A DNA stretch of 41,919 nt from Chloroflexota bacterium (GTDB lineage: Bacteria > Chloroflexota > Anaerolineae > Anaerolineales > UBA11858): NCBI GenBank assembly GCA_011039385.1, contig DRBO01000158.1, positions 1 through 41,919 on the forward strand. Direction: 5' to 3'. The notes under the pieces were generated by a model that was not told the DNA's origin, did not search any database, and saw only the letters and a program-made list of their open reading frames with translations. Every line of letters begins with the position of its first letter. Positions within the stretch are counted from its first letter, which is position 1. This document shows positions 2,509 to 35,678 of the stretch, one piece after another. The translations under genes and the position numbers were made by a program.

Positions 2509-2514
2509 TATAAT
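2509..2514 (+). promoter_or_regulatory. Candidate -10 box (TATAAT) of a possibly leaderless transcript
   Basis: Exact TATAAT with 7 nt between it and the ATG at 2522; no Shine-Dalgarno and no clear -35. Confidence 0.4.
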
Positions 2515-2521
2515 GGTGTCT

Positions 2522-3850
2522 ATGAATTGGAAGACCGGGGTTTTAATCGCCATCGCTCTCCTGGTTGCAGGCCTGCTGACAGGCTGGCAGCTTTCTCCCC
2601 ATATTGCAGAGGTTCTGCCCACGAGCAGTGAGATCCAGGGCCGGCAGCCCTTAGCGATCAAATTCAATCGGGCCATGGATCCTCAAAGCGTTGAAGAATA
2701 TGTGGATATTTCGCCGCCAGATGATGGAGAGATCAGCTGGGATGCAGATTATAAATTGATGACTTTCACGCCCGGGAGTATCTGGCCTCCCGGAGAGATG
2801 GTCTCCATCCGCCTGAGCAGAGGGGCGCGGTCGAAACTCGGATTCCCATTCTGGCGGGAGTTCAACTACCAGTGGCCTGTCAGCCCCACCTCCCTGGTCT
2901 ATTTATGGCCGGCGGACGGGAAAAGCAATCTCTATAAAATCAACCCGAAAAGCGGTGAAAGTCAAGCCCTGACCAATCACCCTGGCGGGGTACTGGACTA
3001 TTCCATCACTCCGGACAACGAGCAGATCTACTACAGCGTCGCCGTTAAAAATGGCACCAGCAGGATTATGGTCCTCGATCTGCGATCGGGAGAAACCTCG
3101 CTGTTCATGGACTGCAGCGAAGCCCTCTGCACCAGGCCCCAGTTGTCCGCCGATGGGAATAAATTGGCCTATGAAGTGCTTTCCCGGGAAGCCGGCTCCC
3201 TGCCAGACATCCGGGTATTCAATCTCAAAGATCGATCACAGGTTGCCCTGGCCGAACCGGACCAGTGCCTGGAAAGCCCACTCTGGTCCCTGTCCGGCTG
3301 GCTGGCCTATTACAATCAAACAGCCAAAGGCTACCAATTCTGGGATCCCGCAACCGACATCACGCGCTTCCTGCCCAATGAGACCAGCGGGGACGGTAGC
3401 TGGTCAGCTGACGGGCGTTACTTTCTGACCTCGGAGATCCTTTTCGCAGGGGATACCCTGGCACCCCGCCACCTTCAGCTCTATGACCTGGTGGAGGAGA
3501 CCACTCAGGACCTGTCAAAAGGCAGCTTCCTGGAAGATCTCAATCCCAGCTTCTCTACCCGTGGATTGGCATTCGCTTTCAGCCGCAAATCCCTCAGCCC
3601 CCAGGACTGGACTCTCGGGCGCCAACTCTGGGTGATGGACCTGGAAAGCGGCGAGTCCGCCCCGCTCACAGATGAGATCGATTACCAGCACACTTCATTT
3701 GCCTGGCATCCTGACGGGCAGAAGCTGGCCTATGTGCGCTACAACCAGGCCGCTCTTTCTGAAGCACCAGAGATCTGGGTGATCGATACGGACAGCAAAG
3801 AAGCCCTGCGCATGATCATCAATGGATTTGCCCCGGGATGGATTCCCTGA
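2522..3850 (+). CDS. Membrane-anchored TolB/PD40 beta-propeller-like protein with N-terminal Ig-like domain
   Basis: N-terminal TM helix, bacterial Ig-like stretch (IQGRQPLAIKFNRAMDPQSVEEYVDISPP) and repeated propeller-type blades (SADGNKLAYEV, WSADGRYFLTSE, WHPDGQKLAYVR). Start taken at the second ATG. Confidence 0.75.
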   Translation: MNWKTGVLIAIALLVAGLLTGWQLSPHIAEVLPTSSEIQGRQPLAIKFNRAMDPQSVEEYVDISPPDDGEISWDADYKLMTFTPGSIWPPGEMVSIRLSRGARSKLGFPFWREFNYQWPVSPTSLVYLWPADGKSNLYKINPKSGESQALTNHPGGVLDYSITPDNEQIYYSVAVKNGTSRIMVLDLRSGETSLFMDCSEALCTRPQLSADGNKLAYEVLSREAGSLPDIRVFNLKDRSQVALAEPDQCLESPLWSLSGWLAYYNQTAKGYQFWDPATDITRFLPNETSGDGSWSADGRYFLTSEILFAGDTLAPRHLQLYDLVEETTQDLSKGSFLEDLNPSFSTRGLAFAFSRKSLSPQDWTLGRQLWVMDLESGESAPLTDEIDYQHTSFAWHPDGQKLAYVRYNQAALSEAPEIWVIDTDSKEALRMIINGFAPGWIP

Positions 3851-3853
3851 CCC

Positions 3854-4981
3854 ATGGATACAACTACCCTGACCCAGAAGATCAAAGAACGCGCCCATGA
3901 GCTGGGATTCCCTCTGGCAGGCGTGACCACCCCCGATCCCCCGCTTCAGAGGGGATTTTTGCAGAATTGGCTGCAGGCAGGATATCAGGCTTCCATGGAC
4001 TGGATCGGGACTGATTACTCCCTGGAAAGGCGGGCTGATCCCCGGGTCATTCTGCCCGAATGCCGTTCCATCCTGGTACTGGGATCCCCGTACTCAGCCC
4101 CCAGGGGGAACGTGGGGGGCGGCAACATCGCTGCTTATGCTCTCAATCAGGATTACCATGATGTCCTCGGAAAACGCCTTCAGGCGCTAGTGGAAGCTAT
4201 TGAGGATTGGGTAGGCGAACCGGTTCCCAACCGCTGGTATACTGATACAGGCCCAGTACTGGAAAAGGAACTGGCCATGCGAGCCGGCCTGGGCTGGATC
4301 GGGAAAAACACCATCTTGATCAATAAGGAATACGGCTCCTACTTTTTCCTGGCCGAGATCCTGCTGGGGATAGAACTGATCATTGATCCACCAATCACTG
4401 AAAACTACTGCGGCGACTGCACGCGCTGCCTGGTCACCTGTCCCACAGGAGCGCTGCGCGAGCCTTACACCCTGGACGCCAACCGTTGCATCTCCTACCT
4501 GACCATCGAGCATCGGGGAGAAATTCCCGAAGGCTTGCGCTCCCGGATAGGGGACTGGATTTTTGGCTGCGACATTTGTCAGCTCATCTGCCCCTGGAAC
4601 AAACCCGGGCAGGAAGCTTCCAACATCCTGGAAGAATTTCGGCCACGGGAAGAGATACTGGAAGTGGATCTGATCGAGGAGCTGGGATTATGCCAGGAGG
4701 AATTCAGCGCTCGATTCAAAGGCAGCCCGGTCAAGCGTGCCAAACGGCGGGGCTATCTACGAAATGTAGCGATCGCTCTGGGAAATCGCGGTGAAGAGGA
4801 TGCCCTGCCAGCCCTGGAAAAAGCCCTGGAAGCTCCCGAACCTCTGATCCGAAAATCCTCTGCCTGGGCGCTGGGGAAGATCGGGGGAGAAAGAACAAGT
4901 CGGATTTTACAAAAGCGGCTCAAGGATGAAACCGATCCCGGGGTCATCCGGGCCATCCAAGACGCACTTGGGGAACAGTAA
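3854..4981 (+). CDS. queG: Epoxyqueuosine reductase with C-terminal HEAT-like repeats
   Basis: CGDCTRCLVTCPTGAL and GCDICQLICPWNK (two 4Fe-4S motifs), RWYTDTGPVLEKELAMRAGLGWIGKN; C-terminal ALEAPEPLIRKSSAWALGKIG HEAT-type repeats. Confidence 0.95.
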   Translation: MDTTTLTQKIKERAHELGFPLAGVTTPDPPLQRGFLQNWLQAGYQASMDWIGTDYSLERRADPRVILPECRSILVLGSPYSAPRGNVGGGNIAAYALNQDYHDVLGKRLQALVEAIEDWVGEPVPNRWYTDTGPVLEKELAMRAGLGWIGKNTILINKEYGSYFFLAEILLGIELIIDPPITENYCGDCTRCLVTCPTGALREPYTLDANRCISYLTIEHRGEIPEGLRSRIGDWIFGCDICQLICPWNKPGQEASNILEEFRPREEILEVDLIEELGLCQEEFSARFKGSPVKRAKRRGYLRNVAIALGNRGEEDALPALEKALEAPEPLIRKSSAWALGKIGGERTSRILQKRLKDETDPGVIRAIQDALGEQ

Positions 4982-8070: not shown

Positions 8071-9039
8071 TCACTGTAAGGCTTCAACGATGGCACTCAC
8101 GTCGAAGCGCATAAAATCCAGATAGGTTCCGGCAGGTTCACCGGCGGTCAATGATCCAAAATATAAGGGGATCAGATCCACCCCGGTTTCCTCGGCTACT
8201 CGTTGGGCCAAGGTAGGGTCAAAATCGATTCCAACGAAAATCGCTCTCACCTGATTTTCCCGAATGGTGTCAATCAGACCGGCCAATTCCTGTCCAGAGG
8301 TTTCCGCCTCAGTGGTCAGGGCAGGGATGACAGCGCCGATCTGTCTGAATCCGTATTGCTGCGCAAAATAGCTCAGGGAGGTGTGGTCGGTAACCAATTC
8401 CCTGTTCCCCTCTGGGATCCGGTTGACCTCCGCCCGGATCCAGCTATCCAGGGCCAGCAAATCCTCCTGGAAGGCCTGGCCGTTGGCCTGGTAGTCCGCC
8501 GCATGGGCAGGGTCCAGGCGAGCGAGGGCATTGACTATGTTTTCGGTCCAGATAAAGGTGTTATTGGGATCGAACCAGACGTGGGGATCGTAGCCGATCT
8601 CCTGGCCATGATCCTCCTCGAGTTCATCGTCATCCCCCTCTCCGCCAGTTTGATCAGGCAAACCAAGCGGCTGAATGCCTTCGGAAACCACGACCACCTT
8701 GGCCTCCGTGCCTGAGCCATCCAGTAAATCGTCCAGGAATTCTTCCAGGTTGAGCCCATTGACAAAGATGGCATCCGCCCGGGAGATATTCACCAGATCC
8801 TGGGGTGTGGGTTGATAGGAATGGGGGTTCTGCCCAGGCTCCAGCAGCACGGTGATCTCCGGGATTCCCCCCGCTACTTGCCCGACAACGTCTCCAATAA
8901 AAGTGGTTGTGGCCACGATTTCCAAACGTTCACGATCTTCCGTCCCGGGCCTATTTTCAATCGGACTGCAAGCCGCGAGCGCGATGCCCATCGCCAATAT
9001 AATCCCTGCCAGTAAGAAGTACTTGTTTATTCTTAACAT
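8071..9039 (-). CDS. Metal ABC transporter substrate-binding lipoprotein, ZnuA-like
   Basis: Lipobox ALAAC; ligand regions NPHSYQPTPQD, YDPHVWFDP, TDHTSLSYFAQQYGF; acidic loop GGEGDDDELEEDHGQ. Confidence 0.93.
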   Translation of the reverse strand: MLRINKYFLLAGIILAMGIALAACSPIENRPGTEDRERLEIVATTTFIGDVVGQVAGGIPEITVLLEPGQNPHSYQPTPQDLVNISRADAIFVNGLNLEEFLDDLLDGSGTEAKVVVVSEGIQPLGLPDQTGGEGDDDELEEDHGQEIGYDPHVWFDPNNTFIWTENIVNALARLDPAHAADYQANGQAFQEDLLALDSWIRAEVNRIPEGNRELVTDHTSLSYFAQQYGFRQIGAVIPALTTEAETSGQELAGLIDTIRENQVRAIFVGIDFDPTLAQRVAEETGVDLIPLYFGSLTAGEPAGTYLDFMRFDVSAIVEALQ

Positions 9040-15042: not shown

Positions 15043-16374
15043 TCATATAGCTGCGTCAGCAACGCCGTGAGCCTCACCCCGTGAGACCAGGGTCATTGCG
15101 AGCAAGCCCAGCACAAAAAACGCTGGCCCAGACAAAAATATGGTCCGGAAGTTGCTTCCAAAAAGGTCGATCACCGCTCCCATCATCAGGGGCGCCAGGG
15201 CAGCACCGATCTGGGATGCCAGATAATACAGCCCGGTGTAAGTGCCCAGAAGCCTTTCATCCTCAGAGGTATCGATCACCATCGGCAGGGTGTTGACATT
15301 GATCAGCGCCCAGCCAATACCACTGGTAGCCAGGATGATCCCCATCTGGGTGGAGTCTTTCACAAAATAACCCAGAGCCATATCAATGCCAAACAAGATG
15401 ATCCCAGCAATGATCGTCCGCTTGCGGCCAAACTTCTCGCCAATGAATCCGGCTGGTACGCTGAAAAGAATAAAGGTCACCCCTGCCAATCCGAACAGCG
15501 TGGGCGCAAAGCCCTCACTGATGCCCAGCTCATTTACCGCATAGGAGGTGAAAAACGTACCAATCCCCTCGTAGGCAATAAATAGTAAAAAGATGGCCCC
15601 TAACAGCGCGATCAAACTGCGCCGGTATTCCTTGGGAACAACCGAGACCCCCTTCAGGGCACCGACAGCCTGTTCTTCGTCGCTGTGCTGATGTTCCTCC
15701 GGATGGGGCAGGCTGTCCACGTCTGGCTCCTTGGTAGTCAGGAAAAGCACCAATAGAGCTACGATAAGAATGACAGCCGCTCCCAGGAAAGGATAGAGGG
15801 GTTTGATGTCAAACAGCAGGGCCAACCCAAACGAGCCGATAATAAATCCAACCCCGCCCATAAAATTGATCACCCCGTTCGCTTTGCTGCGCAGCGGGGA
15901 AGGGATCAGATCGGGCATAAGCGAGATGACCGGTGTGCGCAGAACAGCCATCGCCAGCAGCACCAGGGCAGTGGCAATCATGAACAGGGAAAAGGCAGCC
16001 GTATTTCCGGCAATCCTGCCATTGAGTTCGGGTTTGACCATGCCCGCGGCCAAGGGCATAGCGATAAAAGCCAGGGCAGCCAGCGGCGCGGCTGTGAGAA
16101 TGAAAGGATAACGCCGGCCAATAGGCGTTCTGATCCTGTCACTCCAGACCCCTATCAAGGGGAGGATAAAAATCGCGGCCAGATTATCTATGCCCATAAT
16201 CGCCCCAGTCGTCGTGGCATTCAACCCAAAACCCAGCATATCCCGCGAACTTTCAAAACCAGGATGACCGGTTTGCAGAAAGATAGGCACAAAAGCGTTA
16301 TATATCTGCCAGACCACCATGGTACCCAGAAAACCAAAGCCGATCAGAAAAGTCTTCTTCCAATCCAGTTTCAT
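15043..16374 (-). CDS. MFS transporter (GPH/SLC45-like)
   Basis: 12-TM-like protein with MGIDNLAAIFILPLIGVWSDRIRTPIGRRYPFI and FGRKRTIIAG motifs. Confidence 0.9.
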   Translation of the reverse strand: MKLDWKKTFLIGFGFLGTMVVWQIYNAFVPIFLQTGHPGFESSRDMLGFGLNATTTGAIMGIDNLAAIFILPLIGVWSDRIRTPIGRRYPFILTAAPLAALAFIAMPLAAGMVKPELNGRIAGNTAAFSLFMIATALVLLAMAVLRTPVISLMPDLIPSPLRSKANGVINFMGGVGFIIGSFGLALLFDIKPLYPFLGAAVILIVALLVLFLTTKEPDVDSLPHPEEHQHSDEEQAVGALKGVSVVPKEYRRSLIALLGAIFLLFIAYEGIGTFFTSYAVNELGISEGFAPTLFGLAGVTFILFSVPAGFIGEKFGRKRTIIAGIILFGIDMALGYFVKDSTQMGIILATSGIGWALINVNTLPMVIDTSEDERLLGTYTGLYYLASQIGAALAPLMMGAVIDLFGSNFRTIFLSGPAFFVLGLLAMTLVSRGEAHGVADAAI

Positions 16375-17486: not shown

Positions 17487-17954
17487 GGATTAGATTTTAC
17501 CACCGGGATATATGTTGATAACTCCGGATTGGGGGGAGGGATAAAACGACAGAAAGACTCCGAGATCAGGGAGCTGGGGTACTTGGAGGAGGGGTGACTG
17601 AGTGAGTCGCAAGTTGGAAATCGTGAGTCGTTCTGGAGTTATCAGAATATCCAAATAATCAGTAAATAATGCTGGGGTTGTAGTGGCAGGCGGGCTGAAG
17701 AGTGGTTGATCACCTCATCATCCTGTCACCCCTGATGTCATTGCAAAGAGCCGGCCGATGGGAGGAAGAGTTCGTCCTGATGGGATTGCCGCGCTTCCCT
17801 CGATTTCTCTCGGGACAGGCGCATTGATGGACTGCTTGTCCCGATCGCGATCCCTCATCTCACTCGGGATAAACTCCAGCCCGCATCCGGCCCTCGGTCT
17901 TCGGTCGTGCCCGCAAGGCACCTTCCCCCCGGTCCTCGGTCGAGCCTGAAAAAC

Positions 17955-18392
17955 TCACATCTCCAGCGAGATGGTCACCGGTCCGTCATTAATGATTTCC
18001 ACTACCATGTGGGCGCCGAATTTCCCCTCGCCGGTAGGAATTCCCAGGGCACGCAGGCATTCAGCAAAATAGGTTGAAAGCGGCTCCGCGATTTCAGGGG
18101 GTCCTGCGTCCGTGAAACTCGGCCGGTGGCCGCGGCGGGTGTCCGCGAACAGGGTAAACTGGGGGATCACCAGGGCTTCCCCGCTGATGTCCAGCAGGGA
18201 GATGTTCATCTTGCGGTTCTCATCCGGGAAGATGCGCATTCGGGCGATTTTTTCTGCTAATTTACGAGCGACAGCTTCATCATCCTGCGGGCTAACGCCA
18301 AGCAGGATCACTACCCCCTCCTGGATCTCGGCCAGGGTTTCCTCCCCCACAGAAACACCCCCCCGCTGCACGCGCTGGACCACAGCTTTCAC
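17955..18392 (-). CDS. dtd: D-aminoacyl-tRNA deacylase
   Basis: MKAVVQRVQRGGVSVGEE, GVSPQDDEAVARKLAEKIARMRIF, LVIPQFTLFADTRRGHRPSF, GKFGAHMVVEIINDGPVTI. Confidence 0.97.
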   Translation of the reverse strand: MKAVVQRVQRGGVSVGEETLAEIQEGVVILLGVSPQDDEAVARKLAEKIARMRIFPDENRKMNISLLDISGEALVIPQFTLFADTRRGHRPSFTDAGPPEIAEPLSTYFAECLRALGIPTGEGKFGAHMVVEIINDGPVTISLEM

Positions 18393-18395
18393 ACC

Positions 18396-19397
18396 TTACT
18401 CCCTTGCCCCATAAAAGCCGATCGCTTCCCGGACTTCAGACATGGTTTCACTGGCGATCACCTTGGCCCGTTTGGCGCCATCTTCCAGGACATCACGTAC
18501 AATATTGGGATCCCGGGATAGTTCCTCCCGTTTGGCCCGGAAAGGCACCAGGTGCTGGTTGAGATTGGCAGCCAGTTTCCGTTTACAATCCACGCAGCCG
18601 ATGCCCGCTTTACGGCACTCCCGGTTGATTTCCTCGACTTCCTCCTCTGAGGAAAATATCTTGTGCAGGGAGAAAACATTGCAGACATCAGGGTTGCCCG
18701 GATCGTCGCGCCGCATCCGCTGGGGGTCGGTAACCATGCTCATGATCCGCTTTTCGGTTTCTTCCGGCGTGGCTGCCAGCTCGATGTGATTGTCCAGGCT
18801 TTTGCTCATTTTGCGTTCCCCATCAATCCCCACGACCTTAGGGATCTGGGTAACCTTGGCCTGCGGCTCAACCAGGATGTTGGTCTCATAGCGGTGGTTA
18901 AAGGAGCGAACTACCTCGCGGGCGAATTCCAGATGGGGAATCTGGTCGGTGCCAACAGGGACCAGATCAGCTTTGTAAAGCAAGATGTCGGCTGACATCA
19001 AAACCGGATACCCTACCAGGCCATAGTTGACGTTGTCCGGGTTATCACGCACCTTCTCCTTGAAGGTGGGCAGCGCCGTCAGTTTACCCAACGGGGTCAC
19101 CATGGAGAGGATGGTATGCAGCTCCATCACCTCGGGAACATGGGACTGGACAAAAATGATGCTCTTTTCAGGGTCGATTCCGGCGGCCAGCCAATCCAGT
19201 GTCATCTCCTGGGTGTTCAGCGCCAATTCTCGGGTGGTTTCCACTGTGGTCAGGGCGTGAATATCCACCACGCAGTAGACGGTTCGGTAATCACCTTGCA
19301 GGGCCACATAGTTCTTGATGGCCCCCAGATAGTTACCCAGATGCTGACGTCCTGTAGGCCTGGCGCCTGAAAAGACTCTGCCTTTTTTCTCGGTCAT
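18396..19397 (-). CDS. trpS: Tryptophan--tRNA ligase
   Basis: GARPTGRQHLGNYLGAIKN, VDIHALTT, GTDQIPHLEFAREV, KMSKSLDN. Confidence 0.97.
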   Translation of the reverse strand: MTEKKGRVFSGARPTGRQHLGNYLGAIKNYVALQGDYRTVYCVVDIHALTTVETTRELALNTQEMTLDWLAAGIDPEKSIIFVQSHVPEVMELHTILSMVTPLGKLTALPTFKEKVRDNPDNVNYGLVGYPVLMSADILLYKADLVPVGTDQIPHLEFAREVVRSFNHRYETNILVEPQAKVTQIPKVVGIDGERKMSKSLDNHIELAATPEETEKRIMSMVTDPQRMRRDDPGNPDVCNVFSLHKIFSSEEEVEEINRECRKAGIGCVDCKRKLAANLNQHLVPFRAKREELSRDPNIVRDVLEDGAKRAKVIASETMSEVREAIGFYGARE

Positions 19398-19403
19398 GCT
19401 CTT

Positions 19404-19646
19404 TTACTCCTTAATAGTGTCCTTGAAAAGACCCAAGATTTCCGGTGGATCCGCATGCCGGCCAGTTTCCAGCTTCGAGTAGATCAATTTTCCATCCACC
19501 CGGATCTCAAAGGCCCCACCATCTGACGGGACAAGCTTAATCTCGGAAATGATATCCGCAAATTCCTTCTTTAAAGCACCCTCTAAACTGAGGGCTCTGG
19601 GTGTATAGTTTCAAGGAACACAGTATTCTATTGACACTTTTTTCAT
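19404..19646 (-). CDS. SelW/SelT/SelH-type (Rdx family) selenoprotein with in-frame UGA as selenocysteine (CxxU)
   Basis: Reverse translation gives MKKVSIEYCVP[UGA]NYTPRALSLEGALKKEFADIISEIKLVPSDGGAFEIRVDGKLIYSKLETGRHADPPEILGLFKDTIKE*. The TGA is complement(19611..19613). Family pattern is [E/T]YCxP[C/U]NYxPRA...GGxFEVxVDGxLxxSKxETGR; SD GAGGAG upstream. Absent from the ORF track because of the TGA. Confidence 0.88.
19575..19597 (-). promoter_or_regulatory. Bacterial SECIS-like stem-loop
   Basis: 21 nt after the UGA: GCCCTC-AGUUUA-GAGGGU (6-bp stem including one terminal G-U, 6-nt loop with G at position 2), extended by a G-C pair beyond a 1x1 A/G mismatch. Confidence 0.7.
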
Positions 19647-19675
19647 CTTCGAATACTCCTCATTAATTGAAAAAT

Positions 19676-19684
19676 AGTATATCA
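19676..19684 (-). promoter_or_regulatory. Candidate extended -10 promoter for the selenoprotein-trpS-dtd operon
   Basis: TGATATACT (TGnTATACT) on the minus strand, about 30 nt upstream of the ATG at 19646; no clear -35. Confidence 0.4.
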
Positions 19685-19732
19685 CAAGGGCTTTACGAGC
19701 TCTGGTTGACAAAGGCTCAGGAAACATACCTG

Positions 19733-19741
19733 TGCTACAAT
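19733..19741 (+). promoter_or_regulatory. Candidate extended -10 promoter for the Memo-like gene
   Basis: TGCTACAAT. An upstream TTGACA at 19706 is 24 nt away, too far to be its -35. Confidence 0.4.
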
Positions 19742-19753
19742 CGAAATGAAACC

Positions 19754-20599
19754 ATGAAGCAATTTAGCGATATCAGACCCTCACCACTGGCCGGACGCTG
19801 GTATCCCGCTAACCCCAAACGATTGGCGGAATCCGTGGATGGCTATATATCCCAAGCGCAGGTTCCAGAACTCTCCGGCAAAGTCGCTGCCTTGATCTCC
19901 CCCCACGCCGGTCATCTCTATTCCGGACCGGTAGCAGGCTATGCCTTTAAAACCCTGCAGGGCAGACAAGCTGACCTGGTGGTCATCCTCTCACCCTTCC
20001 ACCAGCTCCATCCCGGCGAAATTCTCACCACCGGGCACGACGCCTATCAAACCCCGCTAGGGGATGTTCCTGTCGATCGCGACAGCCTGGAATGGGTAGA
20101 TAGTGCTCTCCGGGATCGGATTGGCACAGGCTTAACGCAAATCCGAAATGACCCTGAACACGCCGTGGAAATCCTGCTGCCTTTTTTCCAGCGCACATTT
20201 CCGGACGGGTTTCAACTCCTGCCGCTGATGATCCGAGACCAGGCTCCCTCCTTAATGCGGGCTCTGGGATCGATCCTTGCAGCGTTAATGAGCTCCCGGG
20301 GTGCCCTTCTGGCTGCCAGCACTGATCTGTCACACTTCCACCCTGCCGCAGAAGCCAGGATGATGGATCAGACCATCATCGACCGCATCCAAGCCCTGGA
20401 CCCGGAGGGACTCTATCAAGTTCAGCAGAGTGGGACCGGCTCCGCCTGCGGACTCGGTCCCCTGGCCGCAGTCCTTTGGGCGACCAGCGAGATTGGCCCC
20501 GTGACCTCCAAAATATTGAATTATGCCCATTCCGGCGACATCACAGGCGACAATGCCAGCGTAGTGGGATATACCTCCGGAGTCCTGATCCGGGATTGA
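19754..20599 (+). CDS. AmmeMemoRadiSam system protein B (Memo-like)
   Basis: RPSPLAGRWYPANPKRLAESVDGYI, ALISPHAGHLYSGPVAGYAF, TDLSHFHPAAEARMMDQ, GLGPLAAVLWA, YAHSGDITGD. Start at MKQFSDI preferred over the track start. Confidence 0.92.
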   Translation: MKQFSDIRPSPLAGRWYPANPKRLAESVDGYISQAQVPELSGKVAALISPHAGHLYSGPVAGYAFKTLQGRQADLVVILSPFHQLHPGEILTTGHDAYQTPLGDVPVDRDSLEWVDSALRDRIGTGLTQIRNDPEHAVEILLPFFQRTFPDGFQLLPLMIRDQAPSLMRALGSILAALMSSRGALLAASTDLSHFHPAAEARMMDQTIIDRIQALDPEGLYQVQQSGTGSACGLGPLAAVLWATSEIGPVTSKILNYAHSGDITGDNASVVGYTSGVLIRD

Positions 20600-35019: not shown

Positions 35020-35134
35020 CCGGGGACCGGGGGTCGCCGGAGTTTACCCCGAGAGCAGCGAGGGGCAGCCGACCGGGAAAATCGTCTGCCCTATGGATGA
35101 ATTCAACCAGGATGGCAATAATTGAATTAGGGGG

Positions 35135-35488
35135 GAATACAAATTTCAATCTCTATTCGTCTATCAACTCTCTTTGGACTATGTTGATCAAGCATACGAA
35201 CTGATAAAAACGATTCCTGGAAATGAAAGTTTCAATTTGAGTTCATAATTGGTTCGAGCCGCTACCTCTATCACACTCAATATCGAGGAAGGCTCAACAG
35301 GTCAATCTAACAAAGAACAGGCACACTTCTTAAGTTTGGCCATTCGCTCCTCTATAGAAACAGTCGCATGTCTGGATTTGATCCAAAGAAGGCAATCTAT
35401 ATCTTCCGATGACCTTAACACTGCCCGGAAGATCGGTAGAACCCTATTCTATAAACTCACAAGATCCCACAAATCTATAAGAAATTAA
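35135..35488 (+). pseudogene. Degenerate four-helix bundle protein (S23/IVP-like family)
   Basis: One frame reads YKFQSLFVYQLSLDYVDQAYELIKTIPGNESFNLSS*LVRAATSITLNIEEGSTGQSNKEQAHFLSLAIRSSIETVACLDLIQRR... The TAA (35246..35248) falls where family members have Q/R (LTSQLRRAA). No ATG start in frame. Confidence 0.75.
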
Positions 35489-35678
35489 CCGCCCACCTTC
35501 TATCTGCTTCTTACGGTCTCTTTACCCCCCGTCTCCTTACCCCCGTCCGGCTGCGAAGCAGCCGTTCCTGGCTTCGCGGGGAACCAAGTGTCAAGGCAAA
35601 GTTAAAATATCCTGCAGTTCGCGGGGAACCAGTTGCCTTCCCTGCCCTTTCAAGATAGACTAGGGGATAAGGTTTTCA

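Follow-up and report, generated by a model that had tools for sequence, protein, structure and literature searches.

On the minus strand of the 41,919-nt stretch of DNA analysed here (the window), the interval between trpS, which encodes tryptophan--tRNA ligase (18396-19397, minus strand), and a divergently oriented gene for Memo, or AmmeMemoRadiSam system protein B (AmmeMemoSam_B; 19667-20599, plus strand), holds a reading frame in which a single TGA stands at codon 12 (19611-19613). Is this frame a broken gene, or is it a gene in which UGA is read as selenocysteine (Sec)? We conclude, with a probability of roughly 95%, that it is a functional gene of an Anaerolineales bacterium, here called rdx, and that it encodes a small Rdx (SelW-like) selenoprotein with a thioredoxin fold. 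A preliminary description had placed a minus-strand protein between these two neighbours and had stated that ORF calling misses it. Both statements held: the translation of 19404-19646 with TGA read as U is identical to the one proposed, and the ORF listing of the window contains no standard ORF of at least 80 aa in this frame. The product has 80 aa (MKKVSIEYCVPUNYTPRALSLEGALKKEFADIISEIKLVPSDGGAFEIRVDGKLIYSKLETGRHADPPEILGLFKDTIKE), the frame carries one internal TGA and ends with TAA at 19406-19404, and GAGGAG just 5' of the ATG (19656-19661, minus strand) is the likely ribosome-binding site.

The assignment to the Rdx (SelW/SelT-like) family, also made in the preliminary description, is borne out by profile, sequence and fold comparisons. 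The protein scores 76.1 bits against Pfam PF10262 Rdx (E 2.5e-21, cut-off 22.6) and 68.1 bits against NCBIfam TIGR02174 CXXU_selWTH (cut-off 34.2), and its sequence matches in the PDB are SelW-related proteins, including 2fa8 (E 2.5e-15) and mouse SelW, 2npb (E 5.9e-06). An AlphaFold2 model built from an alignment of 20 sequences, with C in place of U, reached a pLDDT of 91.8 and places the motif C9-V-P-U12 at the end of the beta strand formed by residues 2-9; Y8, C9 and position 12 are invariant in alignment A1. The best structural matches of the model are 2fa8, 2obk and 3dex (TM 0.88-0.92), and the wider set of 2fa8, 3dex, 2obk and 2p0g has the same fold (TM about 0.9) at 27-36% identity. 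These four solved proteins are, we take it, Cys forms. Mouse selenoprotein W (2npb) shares with the rdx product a CxxU motif in a thioredoxin-like fold, with a TM of 0.75 and 29% identity over the fold match; eukaryotic SECIS elements lie in the 3' UTR and are of another type than the bacterial ones. Because of this family membership, the protein is most likely a thiol/selenol oxidoreductase that would work through a C9-U12 selenenyl-sulfide.

The UGA is kept among relatives. A protein search of 121 genomes (the window's own and relatives within the order) found rdx in 68, and all matches covering the motif carry a TGA in frame; three weak matches begin past the motif, and two matches have a second stop near the C-terminal end (TAG in G013, TAA in G017). 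TGA occupies the motif position in 70 of 70 fetched same-order loci, where CAVU accounts for 36 and CVPU for five, and in all 80 fetched loci of named public genomes, none of which has Cys. In these 150 loci, whose two sets partly overlap, no Cys-containing, frameshifted or truncated relative occurs at the rdx position. The phylum-wide Rdx search agrees, since every same-order match listed has the TGA; in other Chloroflexota classes, TGA-containing and TGA-free Rdx forms are both present. The codons past the UGA differ from those of four sister species mostly by synonymous changes (pS 0.64-0.92, pN 0.14-0.28), and the stretch beyond the UGA is therefore under selection as protein. Nearly all named relatives of the rdx protein belong to Chloroflexota, for the most part to Anaerolineales and Anaerolineae, and the same TGA-bearing gene is present in the isolates Bellilinea caldifistulae, Thermanaerothrix daxensis and Anaerolinea thermolimosa. 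The gene is absent from some same-genus genomes and is thus dispensable. Outside the phylum, the same rdx, UGA included, occurs in three Acidimicrobiia (Actinomycetota) metagenome assemblies (L162, L181, L195), where it has a similar hairpin but no adjacent trpS; a transfer from one phylum to the other or an error of binning might account for this.

Bacterial SelW-like selenoprotein genes have a SECIS hairpin right past the UGA. By folding and covariation, we located such a hairpin at 19578-19595 (minus strand), 16-33 nt past the rdx UGA, with a 5' arm at 19595-19590, the loop AGUUUA at 19589-19584 and a 3' arm at 19583-19578. The published model requires a loop of 3-9 nt, an upper stem of 4-16 bp, a spacing of 16-37 nt and an energy of at most -7.5 kcal/mol (PMC13188914 Fig. 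2A), with a G in loop position 1 or 2 that is usually followed by G or U (PMC13188914). The window's own hairpin lies within all of these constraints: it has an apical loop of 6 nt on a stem of five Watson-Crick pairs and one G-U pair (CCCUC-AGUUUA-GAGGG plus the G-U), a spacing of 21 nt between UGA and loop (the loop starts at +22), GU at loop positions 2-3, so that G falls within the first two, and an energy of -9.7 to -10.9 kcal/mol with closing pairs. In a 45-nt stretch folded from +13, pair probabilities are 0.82-0.99 and the minimum is -10.4 kcal/mol.

Comparison among relatives gives the hairpin further weight. In 70 sequences that are ungapped past the UGA, the comparative stem joins positions 16-21 with 27-32 around the loop AGUYU, and 84% of its cells are paired, against 36% when the register is slid by one either way. 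Changes on both sides of the stem occur in 63 cells, and 354 cells are paired, where shuffles gave 307 on average and 319 at most; the shuffles take no account of relatedness, whereas the slid registers do. By APC-corrected mutual information, the stem pair 19-29 ranks first among all column pairs, and 18-30 and 20-28 take fourth and fifth place. Loop positions 22 and 26 are able to pair in 66 of the 70, which fits the published pattern N1-G-[G/U]-N-N2. The hairpin of the window's species is shifted by one into a register with a 6-nt loop, whereas most relatives have 5 nt. Folding of the single 66-nt sequence from the UGA is no better than that of shuffles (z -0.44); a competing hairpin is the minimum-energy fold in that context, and the SECIS becomes the minimum only from +13 onward. 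Rfam RF00031 (SECIS_1) matched neither the window's genome nor the control genomes and is hence uninformative, and at gathering thresholds the window had no Rfam match, so that no library family marks the element.

The surroundings of rdx are conserved as well. Downstream of it, trpS starts 6 nt past the rdx stop and dtd (D-aminoacyl-tRNA deacylase, 17955-18392, minus strand) follows 3 nt past trpS; these and the Memo gene were identified by profile matches. Across the 80 public loci, trpS lies immediately downstream of rdx in 66 and dtd on the rdx strand in 63. The rdx-trpS distance, as estimated from matches prolonged to residue 1 of the query, is 16 nt or less in 45 of the 66, some of them overlapping. 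It is probable that rdx is the first gene of an rdx-trpS-dtd operon, and we infer that the three genes are co-transcribed. At one locus (L163), trpS is missing and dtd comes after rdx. In a same-genus genome (G006, contig C83, locus L201), trpS and the start of the upstream Memo gene are present with no rdx or remnant between them, which is a clean absence of rdx. Beyond the operon, two stretches of the window, 17487-17954 (468 nt) and 35020-35678 (659 nt), contain no listed gene and no Rfam match.

This arrangement raises the possibility that rdx does more than encode a selenoprotein. The UGA and SECIS might also act as a selenium-sensitive valve on trpS and dtd translation, by coupling or polarity, and across Anaerolineae the rdx cistron would then encode a selenoprotein and at the same time serve as a leader that senses selenium. 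With selenium in short supply, ribosomes would terminate at UGA codon 12, a trpS ribosome-binding site in the end of rdx would stay unopened for want of ribosomes passing through it, and less TrpRS and D-aminoacyl-tRNA deacylase would then be made. It is the spacing that suggests such a valve: besides the short or overlapping distances just given, the likely trpS ribosome-binding site of the window, AAGGAG (19407-19412, minus strand), consists of the final two sense codons of rdx. However, tight spacing is common in bacterial operons, trpS has a ribosome-binding site of its own, trpS is kept without rdx in the same-genus genome mentioned above, and 14 of the 80 loci have rdx without an adjoining trpS. 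We therefore consider a regulatory role of this kind improbable, and the broader proposal of a leader throughout Anaerolineae equally doubtful. Were it true, selenium or redox status would be linked with aminoacylation capacity throughout Anaerolineae.

The plain selenoprotein reading presupposes a genome able to decode Sec. The window corresponds to contig 4 of an 84.6% complete draft genome of 1.92 Mb in 181 contigs, and the search for sel genes that the preliminary description had called for succeeded in part: selA, selB and selD are in the assembly, but selC, the gene for tRNA-Sec, is not, and a gap is the likely cause. SelA (534.6 bits, G000:C146:2541-3866), SelB (326.8 bits, G000:C14:19000-20874) and SelD (353.7 bits, G000:C53:1596-2522, locus L113) all score above their curated cut-offs. 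SelD has an in-frame TGA of its own, in SSCYG-U-ASK, and is likely itself a selenoprotein. The best matches to tRNA-Sec in this 84.6% complete assembly are tandem tRNA-Ser genes, and it could be argued that the lineage has recently lost selC, and with it Sec decoding, so that rdx is dying in this one species. Against this, selA, selB and the UGA-containing selD are intact, and the genes around selC tell a different story. A tRNA-Sec with anticodon UCA is found in 8 of 9 same-genus genomes, and in six of them (G001, G002, G005, G006, G007 and G008; loci L104, L105 and L107-L110) it lies directly 5' of an M50-type metalloprotease gene, presumably site-2-protease-like as named from its sequence. 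This M50 gene is wholly absent from the window's assembly, and in G004, the other same-genus genome without a tRNA-Sec, it is cut by the contig start. Because the adjoining gene is also missing in the one and cut in the other, an assembly gap is the likely and simplest account of the missing tRNA-Sec, and we judge a true loss very unlikely. The linkage of tRNA-Sec with the M50 gene also provides a handle to locate selC in gapped assemblies.

Two further readings fare worse. A reassignment of UGA to tryptophan (like codes 4 or 25), or near-cognate suppression, would account for an in-frame UGA in a conserved gene that adjoins trpS. As the preliminary description had argued, UGA is a normal stop elsewhere in the window: of the 25 long genes examined, 14 have TGA as their stop, and every one of the 164 Trp residues in the 25 is encoded by TGG, which excludes a UGA=Trp code. 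Moreover, the UGA is confined to the redox position, which in this family is occupied by Sec or Cys, and the Sec machinery is present; we give this reading almost no credence. As to other read-through in the window, the TGA-ending genes at 2513-3850, 8071-9039 and 15043-16374 have long in-frame continuations, which lead into apparently separate downstream genes. The gene ending at 3850 stops at TGA and the next gene, presumably queG judging from its sequence, begins at 3854 and shares its frame (3848-3856), with no sign of read-through. A pseudogene, or a TGC or TGT turned into TGA by faulty sequencing or assembly, for which the draft state of the source might speak, is ruled out for practical purposes by the same TGA in 150 fetched loci (sets partly overlapping) from many independently sequenced genomes including three isolates, by purifying selection past the UGA and by the covarying hairpin.

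Returning to the selenoprotein reading, selenocysteine at the rdx UGA, which the preliminary description had suggested, is strongly supported by the conserved TGA, the covarying hairpin and the presence of selA, selB and selD. From the frame conserved through the UGA, the covarying SECIS and the Sec enzymes in the genome, we infer that Sec is inserted there by SelB, a conclusion that is nearly forced. By analogy with the mechanism of the family, a ribosome starting at 19646 would meet the UGA at codon 12, SelB carrying Sec-tRNA-Sec would bind the hairpin just 3' of it and insert selenocysteine, insertion would give the C9-x-x-U12 redox pair, and translation would continue to the TAA at 19406-19404.

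The SelW-like CxxU family of bacterial selenoproteins has long been known (PMC1088965, PMC1794560, PMC9312934, PMC13188914). No other selenoprotein family was as abundant in the 2005 Sargasso Sea survey, which noted the CXXU motif and called SelW-like function unclear (PMC1088965), and reviews include the family (PMC9312934, PMC13188914). That Anaerolineales use Sec is known from their formate dehydrogenases (PMC4959059). With the bacterial SelW-like (SELENOW-like; PF10262/TIGR02174) proteins, rdx has in common the place of the CxxU motif, the thioredoxin-like fold, the length of about 80 aa and a SECIS right past the UGA (PMC1088965, PMC1794560, PMC13188914). It differs in having CVPU, where CAVU is commoner in its order, in the 6-nt loop of the window's SECIS, and in preceding trpS-dtd; the open-access literature searched yielded no paper that reports an rdx-trpS-dtd order in Anaerolineae or links SelW-like proteins with trpS. 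Against the model of the Campylobacterota SelW, NF041051 (SelTWH_Campy), the protein scores 88.0 bits, exactly the model's cut-off, a borderline match to a protein of another phylum whose genes are often missed in annotation (PMC4607533). What is new here is thus modest: the family was already known, and our analysis adds that the sampled order has the Sec form throughout and that rdx, trpS and dtd follow one another in a conserved order.

These observations have several implications. Standard gene callers lose genes of this kind, and redox selenoproteins are consequently under-counted in Chloroflexota assemblies. Within the order, the Sec form of Rdx is the rule, as no Cys form occurs at the motif in the fetched loci. 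The conserved tRNA-aminoacylation neighbourhood offers a first concrete lead to the role of a bacterial SelW-like protein, and the cultured relatives that carry rdx, in Bellilinea, Thermanaerothrix and Anaerolinea, make the system testable.
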